39,947 nucleotides of DNA from a virus, in IMG/VR virus record IMGVR_UViG_3300043409_000145, positions 1 through 39,947 of that record; one strand, written 5' to 3'. This document shows positions 538 to 34,440 of this stretch, piece by piece. A program made the position numbers and the translations under genes. The notes below the pieces were generated by a model, which saw only the letters and a program-made list of their open reading frames with translations, searched no databases and was not told the DNA's origin. Position 1 is the first letter of the stretch. Every line of letters starts with the position of its first letter.

Positions 538-1080
538 TTGACAACGATAATTGGTATCGAGCATAAAGACGCTGCAATTATTGTTGCTGATAGTCAAACT
601 ACTGATAGTAGTGGCTTTATATATTCACATCCTAATGTTCAAAAGATTGCGGACCGAGGTCCATATCTAATTGCTGGCTCAGGTGAGGTTCTTCCTTGCG
701 ATGTAGCGCAACATATATGGGAACCACCAGTTCCAACTAAGCTAGAGAAAAAAGATTTATATCACTTTATGATTGCAAAGGCTATGCCTTCGCTTCGCAA
801 GTGTTTATCTGATAGCGGATATAACTTTGATGAGGACAATAAGGAACTTAGGTTCCAATTTATTATTGCACTCAATGGAGAAATATTTGATGTAGACCAA
901 GATTGCTCAGTATCTAAATCTGAACACGGAGTCTACGCTGCAGGTTCTGGAGCCGCATACGCACTTGGTGCATTACACGCTGGTGCTGATGCTTATCAAG
1001 CAATGGAGATTGCAAGCAAACTTACAGCATTTACAGCAGGACCTTATCTATCTAAAATTCAACCTAAACATATTAAGTAG
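538..1080 (+). CDS. HslV/proteasome beta-like Ntn hydrolase
   Basis: The 180-residue product looks like an N-terminal-nucleophile hydrolase of the proteasome beta/HslV fold. It starts MTTIIGIEHKDAAIIVADSQ. If the initiator Met is removed, Thr1 is exposed, Asp falls at position 17 and a Lys (K36 of the precursor) falls close to the Lys33 position of proteasome subunits. Two glycine turns, AGSGE (46-50) and AAGSGAAYALGA (134-145), match the family's SGSG-type strand turns. The start is TTG at 538, with a strong AGGAGG Shine-Dalgarno just upstream; this start leaves Thr directly after the Met. The gene lies straight after the portal gene, where phages usually keep the prohead protease, and I see no classical S14, S49 or S78 protease. 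A role in capsid maturation is therefore the main inference; host protein degradation is an alternative. Confidence 0.8.
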   Translation: MTTIIGIEHKDAAIIVADSQTTDSSGFIYSHPNVQKIADRGPYLIAGSGEVLPCDVAQHIWEPPVPTKLEKKDLYHFMIAKAMPSLRKCLSDSGYNFDEDNKELRFQFIIALNGEIFDVDQDCSVSKSEHGVYAAGSGAAYALGALHAGADAYQAMEIASKLTAFTAGPYLSKIQPKHIK

Positions 1081-28372: not shown

Positions 28373-28756
28373 ATGGCAACTAACAAACCACTTAACGGAC
28401 CAAGGATTCCAAGTTACCTCGTTAAAGAAGGTGGGAAATACTTTAATCGTAACGTTAGAGATACCATTACTTCTAGGGAAGACAGCCTAGCACCCCATCT
28501 TTATAGTTTAACGGAAGAATTAAATGAACTATTGTTAAGCAAGCATAGGGACTACGGCCCGAAGAACATCTCAGATGCACCTGGGGGTGCACTTAACGGC
28601 CTTCGAGTTCGGATGCACGATAAGTTAGCTCGTATAAATAACTTAGTAGACAGCGACTTAAGTCCTGAACACGAAAGTTTAGAAGATTCATTTAAGGATA
28701 TGGCTAACTATGCAATCATTGGATTGCTAGTGTTAAGAGATAACTGGGATAAATGA
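28373..28756 (+). CDS. DUF1599-type nucleotide-modification-associated protein
   Basis: The 127-residue protein has the order of features of the DUF1599 (Nmad1) family: LLLSKHRDYGPKNISDAPG (about 52-70), then GLRVRMHDKLARINNLVDSD, then ESLEDSFKDMANYAIIGLLV. The family is helical and related to MazG-like all-alpha proteins and is often linked with phage DNA modification or nucleotide metabolism. I see no deoxynucleotide hypermodification enzyme beside it, so the substrate remains open. Confidence 0.75.
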   Translation: MATNKPLNGPRIPSYLVKEGGKYFNRNVRDTITSREDSLAPHLYSLTEELNELLLSKHRDYGPKNISDAPGGALNGLRVRMHDKLARINNLVDSDLSPEHESLEDSFKDMANYAIIGLLVLRDNWDK

Positions 28757-30770: not shown

Positions 30771-30996
30771 AATCTTCCCCTTCATCTATGTCTATTGGTG
30801 TTGGTGCTGTTGCTAAAGTGCCACAATCTGCGCACTCCATATCAAGGAAATACATTTCAATCTCACCTGTATCAGGTTCGAATAGAGTCTTCAAGTTCCA
30901 TATATTACACCCGCAAGGGCATACAGAGGTTGGCTTACCTCTGATATCCATAGCCTTAGTGTAATCAGGTTTTAGTTCTGTAATATGTTTAGCCAT
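30763..30996 (-). CDS. Zinc-ribbon protein
   Basis: A 77-residue protein. The ligands are CPCGC (26-30 approx.) and CADC (about 55-58), separated by a beta hairpin (NLKTLFEPDTGEIEMYFLDM), a classic two-knuckle ribbon. The ATG 30996 overlaps the TAA of the transglycosylase-like gene. The acidic tail (DIDEGEDCD) is unusual. Function unknown; protein- or RNA-binding is possible. Confidence 0.7.
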   Translation of the reverse strand: MAKHITELKPDYTKAMDIRGKPTSVCPCGCNIWNLKTLFEPDTGEIEMYFLDMECADCGTLATAPTPIDIDEGEDCD

Positions 30997-31388
30997 TAGT
31001 GCCACTTTTTCCTCTCGAAGTGTTGCCACGCATTACAAGGTGTATCGTAGCGGTAGTAAATATAATCCAAGCCACGTTCTATCTGTAATGGTGGTGGTGT
31101 GTTAGGGTTAAGCCCTAGTAGTTGGGGTATACCGCCTGCGTTCTTGCCCATAACTTTAATTTTATTGTAAGCCTTGGGATTCCACGCTGACTCTTTACCC
31201 CATAACCTACTAAGGCATAGCCATTGTTTATCTTGCCACTTGTGTAGCATATCACGGGCGTAAGCCCTGCTATCTGCTTCACTCCACGAAGTCTGAACAC
31301 CTGCTTTTTTAGTTTGCGGTTCGCTTGTTGGAGTATCAAATAGAACTAGTGATACCGACACAAATAGTAAGAATAGTAGTGCTCTCAT
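30996..31388 (-). CDS. Secreted lytic transglycosylase-like protein
   Basis: The 130-residue product has a signal peptide (MRALLFLLFVSVSLVLFDT) and a lysozyme-like domain. RLWGKESAWNPKAYNK gives the catalytic Glu (E66), GKNAGGIPQLLGLNP the conserved Gly/Gln loop, and LQIERGLDYIYYRY plus the final aromatic block the end of the fold. This matches actinobacterial secreted transglycosylases more than phage endolysins. Two Cys (58 and 118) may form a disulfide. It is made early and exported by the host, so it may aid wall loosening or block superinfection rather than cause lysis. The start overlaps WhiB's stop (ATGA). Confidence 0.8.
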   Translation of the reverse strand: MRALLFLLFVSVSLVLFDTPTSEPQTKKAGVQTSWSEADSRAYARDMLHKWQDKQWLCLSRLWGKESAWNPKAYNKIKVMGKNAGGIPQLLGLNPNTPPPLQIERGLDYIYYRYDTPCNAWQHFERKKWH

Positions 31389-31771
31389 TTCAATCTCCCT
31401 GCTCTGATTAAGCCAGCGAATCTTACCTTATGTCTTCGATAGTCGCTAGCCCCGACGGCATTGGCACTAGCCAATCTCTCACCCGAGGTAAGCCCACCCC
31501 ATATGCCCCACTCTAAATTCTCAGGGCGCATACCTTCATCAAGGCAAGCAGACTTCGACGGACACCTATCGCATATGCGTAGTGCTAGGCGTGAATCTTT
31601 TATAGACTTATTCATCTCAGCCTTAGTCGCCCTGCCACTAGTTTCAGTATCAGGATAATCATTCCACCATAGGTTAGGGTCGAACTCTTTACTAGAGCAT
31701 AGTCCTACTATGTTAATTGCTGGTATCTCTAGTCTAGGTTTTTTATTAGGTATACCTGCTCGTCTACCCAT
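31385..31771 (-). CDS. WhiB-family iron-sulfur transcription regulator
   Basis: A 128-residue protein with the four cluster Cys of WhiB proteins: C25, C67, C70 and C76 (ICDRCPSKSACLDEG), the GIWGG turn (89-93) and a basic C-terminal helix (YRRHKVRFAGLIRAGRLK). A short basic N-terminal extension (MGRRAGIPNKKPR) precedes the domain. WhiB regulators bind the host sigma factor and DNA and are confined to actinobacteria and their phages, which is the best host evidence in this window. It could redirect host transcription or exclude other phages. Confidence 0.92.
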   Translation of the reverse strand: MGRRAGIPNKKPRLEIPAINIVGLCSSKEFDPNLWWNDYPDTETSGRATKAEMNKSIKDSRLALRICDRCPSKSACLDEGMRPENLEWGIWGGLTSGERLASANAVGASDYRRHKVRFAGLIRAGRLK

Positions 31772-31989: not shown

Positions 31990-32253
31990 TTATCCTTGAA
32001 AGATTACTTCAGTATATCCGTCAAGGCGTGAGTGGGTAGCGACTAATCCCTTGCTACCTGTAATGTGCTTGTAAGTTCCGTCGCCTAGTGATACCCACAT
32101 AGACTTAGGCTTGAAGCGTGTCTGTGAAGGTAGTGCCTTGACGATAGTTCCACGAGCGTGAAAGTCTGATGATACATCATACGCGTTGTATGAAATTTCA
32201 TCGGCGATAACTCGCAATTCTTCTGCGAGGTTTAGTATTGTGCTGTTGGTCAT
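31990..32253 (-). CDS. Hypothetical protein of the leftward operon
   Basis: An 87-residue protein: an N-terminal helix (STILNLAEELRVIADEISYN) followed by a beta-rich part (MWVSLGDGTYKHITGSKGLV) and a short end (LDGYTEVIFQG). AGAGAGG lies upstream of its ATG. No metal ligands or known domain. Function unknown. Confidence 0.6.
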   Translation of the reverse strand: MTNSTILNLAEELRVIADEISYNAYDVSSDFHARGTIVKALPSQTRFKPKSMWVSLGDGTYKHITGSKGLVATHSRLDGYTEVIFQG

Positions 32254-32306: not shown

Positions 32307-33140
32307 TTAGTAGAAGTCTGCTAGACTTCGTTGGCTCTTCCACATACCCTTAGGGGTATAGCATAAGCAATCCACTAACACCGACTCGCAATCGAAGCAG
32401 GTGTCGCATAGTTCGCAAAAGTATTCACTCTCGTTAAGGTCGATGAGTGCTTGACAAAACGGGCAGAAGTCTAAGGCTTCCGAAGTTTCATCTATCACAT
32501 CTAACACGGGATAATCTTTATATTCTTTAGCCCAATACTCGTTATCATAGAAGGCGATAGGGGGTGGGGTGTAAGCAACACGCTTGTGGGAACTGTTACT
32601 CCACCACACGCCGTCGCTATCCCAACTACCTAAGTTCTCGTTGATGATATACATCTGGCTACCCGCACTAGGGTCTAGGTTAAGCACCGCTATCTTGCTA
32701 CCACTAGCCCACTTGCTAAGCATACTCCATATAGTATCGTCATCTAGCGAAGCAACACCACCTATCTTCGGTAGTATATCTTCGGCTAGGATACGGCTAT
32801 CGCTACGCTTATCACCTTCTGGTATTGCTACATCTAGTATACCATTGTGCGCTAGGTAAGTCAAGTCGCTATCGCCTACCTTGAACGGGTGGCAATTCTC
32901 TTCGTTCTTTACTCCGTGCGTGGCGTATCTTGCGTGCCACATAGCATAGTCATTCGGATATTGCTCACGCAATTCTAAGAAGCGTTTGATAGACTTCTTA
33001 GCCGACATACTACGCTCGGATATAATCTTACCACCTGCTACGATAGCAAAACCATAGCCGTGCGGATTACTACAAGCACCTGCGTGTAGTTCTTCTTGTT
33101 TAGGTATGCCGTTAGGCTCACACACTACAAGTAGACACAT
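32307..33140 (-). CDS. Class II glutamine amidotransferase with C-terminal zinc ribbon
   Basis: The 277-residue protein starts Met-Cys (MCLLVVCEPNG), so removal of Met exposes the catalytic Cys of the Ntn-type glutaminase. Supporting motifs are the oxyanion/glutamine-binding MWHARYATHG (67-76), CHPF (83-86) and the strand YLAHNGIL (95-102). The usual fused synthase or sugar-isomerase domain is absent. From about 228 on there is a Cys cluster (DFCPFCQA, CELCDTCFDC) forming a zinc ribbon. It would release ammonia from glutamine. It lies next to and downstream of the amidoligase, so ammonia may be passed to a ligation reaction. Confidence 0.85.
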   Translation of the reverse strand: MCLLVVCEPNGIPKQEELHAGACSNPHGYGFAIVAGGKIISERSMSAKKSIKRFLELREQYPNDYAMWHARYATHGVKNEENCHPFKVGDSDLTYLAHNGILDVAIPEGDKRSDSRILAEDILPKIGGVASLDDDTIWSMLSKWASGSKIAVLNLDPSAGSQMYIINENLGSWDSDGVWWSNSSHKRVAYTPPPIAFYDNEYWAKEYKDYPVLDVIDETSEALDFCPFCQALIDLNESEYFCELCDTCFDCESVLVDCLCYTPKGMWKSQRSLADFY

Positions 33141-33153
33141 ACTATCACCCCCT

Positions 33154-34440
33154 CTAGGCGTTCATTACTGCTGGTCGGTTAATATCCACGCCACTTATCT
33201 TGTTTAGTCGCGTGTATAGGTCGGGATATAGCCCGTTGTTCTGGGCTACATAGTCGGCGAACCAAGCCCACGATAGTGCGCCACGCTTGACATCATCTAA
33301 GCGTAGGTCGCGGGTATATTCTACCAACGCTTGTGCTAAGTCTAGGGAAGATAGAACACTACTTGTGTTCATAGTTCCCTTAAAGAAGCGCAACTCTAGT
33401 GTGTCGCGGTTATTGGTATTGACCGCACTATATCTTTCGGTGGACTCACCATACTTTACCTTGTGCTTTAGTGAGAACACGGGCTTGTCATACTCATCGA
33501 AGGTATAGACATCGTTGAACCTAGCATAGCGGGACTTGCGACCCGCGAATTTCATCATCATCTCGGAGTTCTTATAGACCATAGATAAGAAGCGGTGCGT
33601 GTGTGCCCCGCCACTAAACCCTGCTCTACTTATATGGATATGAAGCCCGCAGGTTTCGGTATCCCAACTTCTAGCACCATAGTCGGCGCGTAGTGTATCT
33701 ATGGTATCCCATAGTATCTTAGAATTATCTCGGTATTCTAGGTGTGAGTGCGGTTCGGTAACTATCTCGAAGCCTTGACTACCTATACTGCCATCTTGTT
33801 TAAGCATAGCGATACCTTGTAGGTTAGTCGAAGCATAGTTAGAAGCACCACTATAATCACCCTTACTACCACCTTCGATTACTGTTTCCAACTCGAAGCC
33901 TAGATAGACTCCGTGTTTAGACACACCCTTGAAAGTAACAGGTGGCTTACAATTATAGTCGTGAACTACACTACGGCAACGGCAAGGGCGACCACTTACA
34001 CCCTCTCGACATTCGCAAGGGTCTTCATCGTAGTAACTCTCATCGCACTCATCGCAGTAGTAGCAATACCTACTGAAGCAATGCTCGCAAACAGTATCAT
34101 CGCCTACACAAGAGTAATCATTGTCATTACTATAACTATTCTCGCATTGGCTACAATGAAAGGTGTTATACTCATAGCAACTACGACACCATTGTTCATC
34201 ATCTACACTATAAGTATCATCTCTATCTATACCGCTATCGCAACGCTGGCACTCGGTAGAACACTCTTCACACCATAGTTCTTCACTAACCCACCGAAGT
34301 CTATCGGTGGAGTGAACGCCTCTACAATTACCACAAGCATTAGCACAATCTTCACAATAATAGTCGCCGTTCATCTCTAAGTTCATATCGGCAGGATTAC
34401 TACAATCGTGGCACTCTATCTCGTTCTCATCATCTTCCAT
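33154..34440 (-). CDS. Amidoligase with N-terminal array of zinc ribbons
   Basis: The 428-residue protein has two halves. Residues 8-165 hold about 30 Cys in successive CxxC pairs (CHDC, CEDC, CGNC, CEEC, CQRC, CRSC, CSQC, CEHC, CYYC), a LIM-like or ribbon array. Residues about 175-428 match the phage amidoligase family (Amidoligase_2, glutamine-synthetase-like fold): GVYLGFELETVIEGG (E183, E185), KQDGSIGSQGFEIVTEP (214-230), CGLHIHISR (264-272), FAGRKSRYAR, and the ELRFFKGT strand. These give the metal- and ATP-binding Glu and His set. It should form an amide or peptide bond at ATP cost, acceptor unknown; the Cys array may bind the target. Confidence 0.85.
   Translation of the reverse strand: MEDDENEIECHDCSNPADMNLEMNGDYYCEDCANACGNCRGVHSTDRLRWVSEELWCEECSTECQRCDSGIDRDDTYSVDDEQWCRSCYEYNTFHCSQCENSYSNDNDYSCVGDDTVCEHCFSRYCYYCDECDESYYDEDPCECREGVSGRPCRCRSVVHDYNCKPPVTFKGVSKHGVYLGFELETVIEGGSKGDYSGASNYASTNLQGIAMLKQDGSIGSQGFEIVTEPHSHLEYRDNSKILWDTIDTLRADYGARSWDTETCGLHIHISRAGFSGGAHTHRFLSMVYKNSEMMMKFAGRKSRYARFNDVYTFDEYDKPVFSLKHKVKYGESTERYSAVNTNNRDTLELRFFKGTMNTSSVLSSLDLAQALVEYTRDLRLDDVKRGALSWAWFADYVAQNNGLYPDLYTRLNKISGVDINRPAVMNA

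Follow-up and report, generated by a model that had tools for sequence, protein, structure and literature searches.

Genes for an amidoligase of the Amidoligase_2 family and a class II glutamine amidotransferase lie close together in several described phage cassettes, including those of LUZ24, tf and UFV-P2, of RIO-1 and of the phiEco32 type, as they do in the locus studied here. In UFV-P2 these genes are ORF23 and ORF25 (PMC3890496). According to Iyer 2009, as cited in PMC3890496 and PMC5498523, cassettes of the LUZ24, RIO-1 and phiEco32 types also contain an ATP-grasp enzyme, a GGCT/AIG2-like gene and COOH-NH2_lig; related amidoligase cassettes are described in PMC5498523 (RIO-1-type) and PMC3890496 (LUZ24-like). 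The pairing has also been reported for phages of OM43 (Methylophilales), where the amidoligase and GATase genes of MEP401 and MEP402 are adjacent and overlapping (PMC10580990). As to function, cell-wall modification preventing superinfection has been proposed for phiEco32 (Iyer 2009) and a role in secondary-metabolite synthesis in the Marvin paper, both as cited in PMC10580990, while the published descriptions of the pair or cassette in OM43, RIO-1 and LUZ24 phages give no biochemical function for the phage amidoligases. In a directed-evolution study of a Pseudomonas phage, missense changes were found in the amidoligase gp22 and in the glutamine-F6P-aminotransferase-like gp23 of both evolved phages (PMC11450229), and these double changes lend experimental, albeit indirect, support to a joint role of an amidoligase and an aminotransferase-like protein. 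The first-pass annotation of our locus had stated that known amidoligase neighbourhoods include class II amidotransferases; for phages of the phiEco32, LUZ24-like, RIO-1-like, OM43 and Marvin groups, both the pairing and the cell-wall/superinfection idea are in print, and neither is new here. The present analysis adds a measure of how strong the linkage is, the finding of the pair on bacterial mobile elements, a LIM-like fold for the amidoligase N-terminus, the split into a minimal and an extended layout, and the ambiguity of the glutaminase-type protein between GlmS and EgtC.

The pair analysed here, termed AL and GA, lies in a viral stretch of 39,947 nucleotides (hereafter, the window), whose relevant features are the following:

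33154..34440, minus strand: AL, Amidoligase_2 (PF12224) protein of 428 aa (ORF; PF12224, phrog and fold matches)
34030..34413, minus strand: AL N-terminal LIM-like zinc array, ~residues 10-137, with repeated CxxC (sequence, LIM matches, CxxC counts in homologues)
33181..33921, minus strand: predicted glutamine-synthetase-fold catalytic domain of AL, ~residues 174-420 (residues kept in 98-100 of 100 non-redundant homologues; fold matches)
33141..33156, minus strand: AL-GA junction, with the AL stop codon TAG (33154-33156), then the GA ribosome-binding sequence GAGGGGGTGA and start
32307..33140, minus strand: GA, class II glutaminase-type Ntn protein of 277 aa beginning Met1-Cys2 (ORF; GATase, phrog and fold matches)
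32577..33137, minus strand: GA Ntn domain, residues 2-188 (95-100% conserved in 100 non-redundant homologues; aligned with GlmS glutaminase)
32361..32465, minus strand: GA C-terminal zinc-binding-type array, residues 226-260, eight Cys (sequence, CxxC counts in homologues)
31990..32253, minus strand: small conserved protein with no assigned function, 3' of GA, found in this lineage only (same place in 77 of 80 lineage loci)
30996-31388, minus strand: small transglycosylase-like protein with a hydrophobic N-terminus (phrog_12661 'transglycosylase'; SLT below cut-off)
28373-28756, plus strand: DUF1599/NMAD1 gene (PF07659, Nucleotide modification associated domain 1; Pfam match)

Both genes are real, with uninterrupted ORFs on the minus strand, and their order, shared strand and 13-base spacing are as first described. 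A purine-rich ribosome-binding sequence, AGAGGGGGTG, stands ahead of both starts, and that of GA abuts the TAG stop of AL, an arrangement that would favour coupled translation. The junction gaps of homologous pairs in the window's lineage are 8-15 nt. Against the two nearest relatives, dN/dS is ~0.15 for AL and 0.07-0.13 for GA, and both genes are under purifying selection. No Pfam match was found for the small protein 3' of GA. The same minus-strand run also holds a WhiB-type transcription factor gene (31385-31771), present in 74 of the 80 lineage loci, which points to an actinobacterial host. Elsewhere in the window, inside the run of structural genes, an HslV/proteasome-type Ntn protein (538-1080, plus strand) with Thr directly after Met matches phrog_1040 and Pfam Proteasome (23.9 bits, cut-off 22.4); it was found in 16 fetched lineage loci and is possibly a maturation protease.

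AL scores 27.9 bits against Amidoligase_2, above the curated cut-off of 22, and matches phrog_16683, phrog_22302 and phrog_2443 ('amidoligase enzyme'). Its catalytic-type residues are G181-x-E183-x-E185, E225, H267-x-H269, R301 and E349-x-R351. When conservation was counted on 100 non-redundant, divergent AL-GA pairs, G181, E183, E185, D216, S218, E225, P230, G265, H267, R301, E349 and R351 were invariant, and H269 and N341 were kept in 98. By sequence, the only matches of AL to solved structures were LIM zinc fingers, with no convincing match for the catalytic domain. In the predicted model (pLDDT 89.4), the best fold match of residues 174-428 is YbdK (Z 13.1, rmsd 4.1 over 230 residues), and other matches include plant glutamate-cysteine ligase (Z 12.3), glutamine synthetases (up to 12.0) and Dop (10.6). 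The predicted fold of AL is thus of the glutamine-synthetase/gamma-glutamyl-ligase type, and it comes with the ExE, H and R active-site residues of Amidoligase_2, which the homologues keep.

GA falls slightly below the Pfam cut-offs for both GATase_6 (25.7 bits, cut-off 27, E 1.2e-5) and GATase_4 (21.4 bits, cut-off 23, E 1.3e-4), and all three Oscillospiraceae-type GA homologues scanned pass that of GATase_6; it also matches phrog_25883 (1.5e-33). Its motif set consists of C2, H69-x-R71, T74-H75-G76, N82-C83-H84-P85, H98-N99-G100 and D114. Invariant in all 100 non-redundant pairs are C2, N25, G28, H69, R71, G76, H84, H98, N99, G100, D114 and S181, and the Gln-binding/oxyanion set (R71, T74-H75-G76, H98-N99-G100, D114) is 95-100% kept. 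The active sites of both proteins are intact. In the predicted model of GA (pLDDT 88.0), the fold is of the GlmS/EgtC Ntn type, GlmS (Z 14.3, rmsd 3.6 over 170 residues) and EgtC (Z 14.2) being tied, so that a glutaminase and a gamma-glutamyl amidase are not separable by fold. The best PDB sequence matches are GlmS glutaminase domains (5e-10), and at the sequence level GA leans towards GlmS rather than EgtC. The assignment of GA to the class II Ntn type with Cys2 as nucleophile is borne out by the Met-Cys start, by C2 in 100 of 100 homologues and by this GlmS/EgtC-type fold.

Cysteine (CxxC) arrays do occur at the non-catalytic ends of both proteins, as had been noted, at residues 10-137 of AL and 226-260 of GA. 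The AL array gives a profile match to the solved LIM protein CRP1 (E 3.9e-4), its modelled fold resembles the LIM domains of PINCH and LMO2, and its score against Pfam LIM (PF00412) is 15.3 bits (E 0.024), under the cut-off of 22.9; it is LIM-like by predicted fold and by weak profile matches to solved LIM proteins only. At least two CxxC lie N-terminal to the catalytic motif in 97 of 100 non-redundant AL homologues, and the C-terminal region of GA carries CxxC in 60 of 100, four of them in 55. The C-terminal array is absent from the MEP401 and ctgrD200 homologues of GA. A large AL array and a GA array were both present in 55 of the 100 pairs, both absent in 36 and mixed in 9 (91 concordant); since this association follows phylogeny and reflects few changes on the tree, it gives no independent support. 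The suggestion that the two zinc ribbons dock on a common partner is not supported, because 40 of the 100 non-redundant pairs lack the GA array and are still adjacent.

The linkage between AL and GA was measured in several sets. At the viral loci of the window's lineage, obtained by searching viral contigs with AL alignments, GA lies directly behind AL in 79 of 80, and at the remaining locus the contig ends 64 bases past AL. All viral loci and annotated phages were pooled into 198 distinct AL proteins, of which 182 have GA directly downstream (median gap 11; 30% overlap), part of this pool having been fetched with GA and the AL-fetched sets alone agreeing (79 of 80, and in the second set all but two truncated loci). 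GA is directly upstream in three, and lies 0.4-1.7 kb away in eight, three of which are a second AL beside a complete pair. No GA was found for the remaining five; four of these loci reach the contig end, leaving the Clostridioides phage AR1086-1 as the sole viral AL truly without a neighbouring GA. Contact is kept where the gene order is flipped (L203, L209), and no AL-GA fusion was found among the ORFs of the viral loci. Pair-bearing phages include Mycobacterium phage Marvin and relatives, the OM43 phage MEP401, ctgrD200 and Acinetobacter AciJM_313. The two proteins diverge in parallel, their pairwise distances being correlated with r = 0.95 (0.90 among pairs diverged by more than 50%; Mantel 0 of 2000), which means that the genes move together, as is expected of any co-inherited genes, and is in itself no proof of contact.

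Some loci depart from the simple pair. In AR1086-1 (L168:4054-6863), AL is flanked by genes for a DUF1653 protein and an RlaP RNA-repair-type protein, and an RNA 2'-phosphotransferase gene lies close by. In four viral cassettes (L207, L219, L246, L275), a single GA has two amidoligases around it, of which the second is often far longer (436-826 aa). The haloviruses PhiCh1 and ChaoS9 have GA and no detectable AL; their GA homologue directly follows a 355-357 aa protein of unassigned family (L169:2929-4576, L177:2863-4516), and the PhiCh1 gene upstream of GA was rejected as a divergent amidoligase, having no significant match to the AL profile. In a Bifidobacterium phage, the gene upstream of GA has no Pfam match and, with its annotated start, a weak hhalign match, while a longer ORF there matches the AL profile.

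The pair is not confined to phages. When bacterial genomes were scanned, 80 loci came up, chiefly from gut Oscillospiraceae and relatives, of which 78 hold both genes and two hold AL without GA. Many of these pairs stand beside recombinases, relaxases or phage genes. A serine resolvase (30 loci), DUF3846, relaxase, DUF932, YqaJ and integrase recur in the neighbourhood, so that many of the bacterial copies are on mobile elements. A Mycobacteroides abscessus plasmid also carries the pair. The single genome of Butyricicoccus pullicaecorum DSM 23266 has at least six pairs (L337, L339, L341, L343, L345, L349), suggesting repeated acquisition or copies on several elements. Because unrelated phages and bacterial mobile elements alike retain it, the near-obligate adjacency of AL and GA is far beyond chance. 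The first-pass annotation had held that its proposal would fail if the two genes rarely occurred together in relatives; they are together in phage and bacterial loci alike (182 of 198 viral AL with GA downstream, both genes at 78 of 80 bacterial loci), a result that favours linkage. That plasmids and integrated elements carry these two genes as well suggests a benefit common to many mobile elements rather than a virion-specific one.

The composition of the surrounding cassette varies. In the larger cassettes of StenR_269, Rhizobium RHph_N3_13 and the LUZ24-like and RIO-1-like phages, the pair is joined by GGCT, ATP-grasp or further ligases. Phages C75C1 and ctfjg026 have a fusion of a GA homologue with a GGACT gamma-glutamylamine cyclotransferase (L175:5001-5897, L178:5001-6218), pointing to gamma-glutamyl-amine chemistry in some relatives. 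No GGCT/GGACT gene was found in the window or in 20 related records, Marvin and MEP401 included, with a search that matched in control genomes. The window proteins scanned with Pfam gave no ATP-grasp match; COOH-NH2_lig (PF14395) had no match in 17 records, nor in any control. As GGACT is absent from the window and the 20 records and present in larger cassettes, two layouts can be told apart, a minimal pair and an extended cassette, and since the pair occurs without partners such as GGACT, two genes seem enough for a complete function.

Given the near-obligate adjacency in either order, the frequent overlap, the invariant active sites and the mirrored trees, AL and GA very probably act as one functional unit. 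To this extent the original proposal is supported; the docking of zinc ribbons on a common partner is not. A mechanism of ammonia release followed by amidation is no more than plausible, because the predicted fold of GA lies as near to EgtC, a gamma-glutamyl amidase, as to the glutaminase of GlmS. Our preferred reading, to which we give an even chance, takes the two proteins as subunits or partners in a single glutamine-dependent amidotransferase, borne by phages and other mobile elements. We infer a complex in which GA would lose Met1 and Cys2 would attack glutamine and free ammonia, AL would phosphorylate a carboxylate with ATP by glutamine-synthetase chemistry, and the ammonia from GA would attack the activated carboxylate to yield an amide. 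The LIM-like zinc array of AL may bind a macromolecular target or aid assembly. As target, a host carboxylate seems likeliest, one that when amidated would favour the resident element; carboxylates of the peptidoglycan stem or elsewhere in the cell envelope come first, followed by a host protein or small metabolite. Counted against this reading are the predicted AL fold, which is closest to gamma-glutamyl ligases (YbdK, GCL) and not to enzymes that use ammonia, albeit with glutamine synthetases within ~1 Z unit, as well as the tie of GA between EgtC and GlmS, the GA-GGACT fusions, the lack of AL-GA fusions among the viral loci, and AL without GA in AR1086-1 and at two bacterial loci. A narrower and more tentative version, possible although we lean against it, is that AL and GA form, by themselves, a minimal glutamine-dependent amidotransferase of two subunits with an uncommon pairing, in which a class II glutaminase would feed a glutamine-synthetase-fold ligase and a prokaryotic LIM-like zinc array would aim the enzyme at its target; the pair would travel as a two-gene cargo of phages, plasmids and integrated elements and modify a shared host carboxylate. 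Amidoligases are common in phages, and the linkage data make the AL-GA pair a good target for study.

A doubtful alternative, which can be combined with the amidotransferase reading as a hypothesis on the substrate, is a peptidoglycan-modifying, superinfection-blocking cassette of the phiEco32/LUZ24/RIO-1 kind, in which altered wall peptides would stop adsorption or injection by competing phages. It follows a published proposal (PMC5498523 and PMC10580990, in the parts citing Iyer and colleagues) and is consistent with the transglycosylase-like gene found in the same minus-strand run in the window's lineage (74 of 80 loci); an exclusion role also fits the occurrence of the pair on plasmids and integrated elements. 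However, of that cassette's further parts, no ATP-grasp enzyme was found among the window proteins scanned with Pfam and no GGCT gene in the window, and the transglycosylase-like gene is recurrent only in the window's and near lineages, with a Pfam SLT match below cut-off.

We consider it unlikely that the two proteins form a gamma-glutamyl handling pair of the EgtA/EgtC or PuuA/PuuD-like kind, in which AL would couple an amine to glutamate through its gamma-carboxyl and GA, as an EgtC/Dug3-like gamma-glutamyl amidase, would remove or edit the product, as the GGACT cyclotransferase would in some relatives. The proximity of the AL fold to YbdK and plant glutamate-cysteine ligase, the tie of EgtC with GlmS for GA together with its GATase_4 match and N-C-H-P-F motif, the GA-GGACT fusions, and the GGCT genes in StenR_269 and RIO-1-type cassettes (PMC5498523) all speak for such a pair, but where the two genes stand alone (window, Marvin, MEP401) the same bond would be made and broken in a futile manner, GGACT is missing from the window and the 20 related records, and GA is nearer to GlmS in sequence. 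Very improbable is the reading of two independently acting enzymes, with GA a free glutaminase or amidase, AL an amine ligase and nothing but an operon in common: single genes do occur (AL in AR1086-1, the one clear viral case, and at two bacterial loci; GA in PhiCh1 and ChaoS9), yet the linkage is very tight over unrelated phages, plasmids and bacterial elements, with inversion of the order. Amidoligases and amidotransferases also occur in hypermodification pathways and the window holds a PF07659 gene, but that the pair decorates phage bases together with this NMAD1/DUF1599 gene is hardly credible, as the NMAD1 linkage fails across the wider pair-bearing set (5 of 17 pair-bearing records, namely the window's lineage and one further record; none of the 12 others, including Marvin, MEP401, ctgrD200 and AciJM_313), thymidylate-synthase-like genes occur in one of 17 records and not in the window, and the pair sits on plasmids and integrated elements too.

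Returning to the amidotransferase reading, its two proteins can be set beside enzymes of known structure. YbdK (1r8g), glutamate-cysteine ligases, glutamine synthetase and Dop share the predicted fold of the AL catalytic domain (Z 10.6-13.1) at ~10-15% identity, and the LIM-like N-terminal array falls outside the region matched to them. The GlmS glutaminase domain (1xff, 3ooj) and GA have the same catalytic set of Cys, R, HNG and D; unlike GlmS, GA carries a zinc-type tail and lacks a fused synthase domain. EgtC (4zfj-4zfl) is, like GA, a stand-alone Ntn protein, and it acts alongside the gamma-glutamyl ligase EgtA in ergothioneine synthesis; unlike in GA, we know of no zinc array in EgtC. Among the phages, MEP401 resembles the window in having no GGACT and differs in that its GA is without the C-terminal CxxC array and its AL has a long N-terminal extension. 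Marvin gp105/gp106, with related Mycobacterium phages (19 records), shows the same two-gene arrangement in the same order, with 31.6% (AL) and 33.7% (GA) identity to the window over the aligned part and a gap of 79 bases against 13. Its GA has a C-terminal Cys array as in the window, while its AL differs in having a shorter zinc array and a C-terminal extension. As Marvin infects a laboratory strain, M. smegmatis mc2 155, the 2009 proposal of wall or metabolite modification is directly testable.
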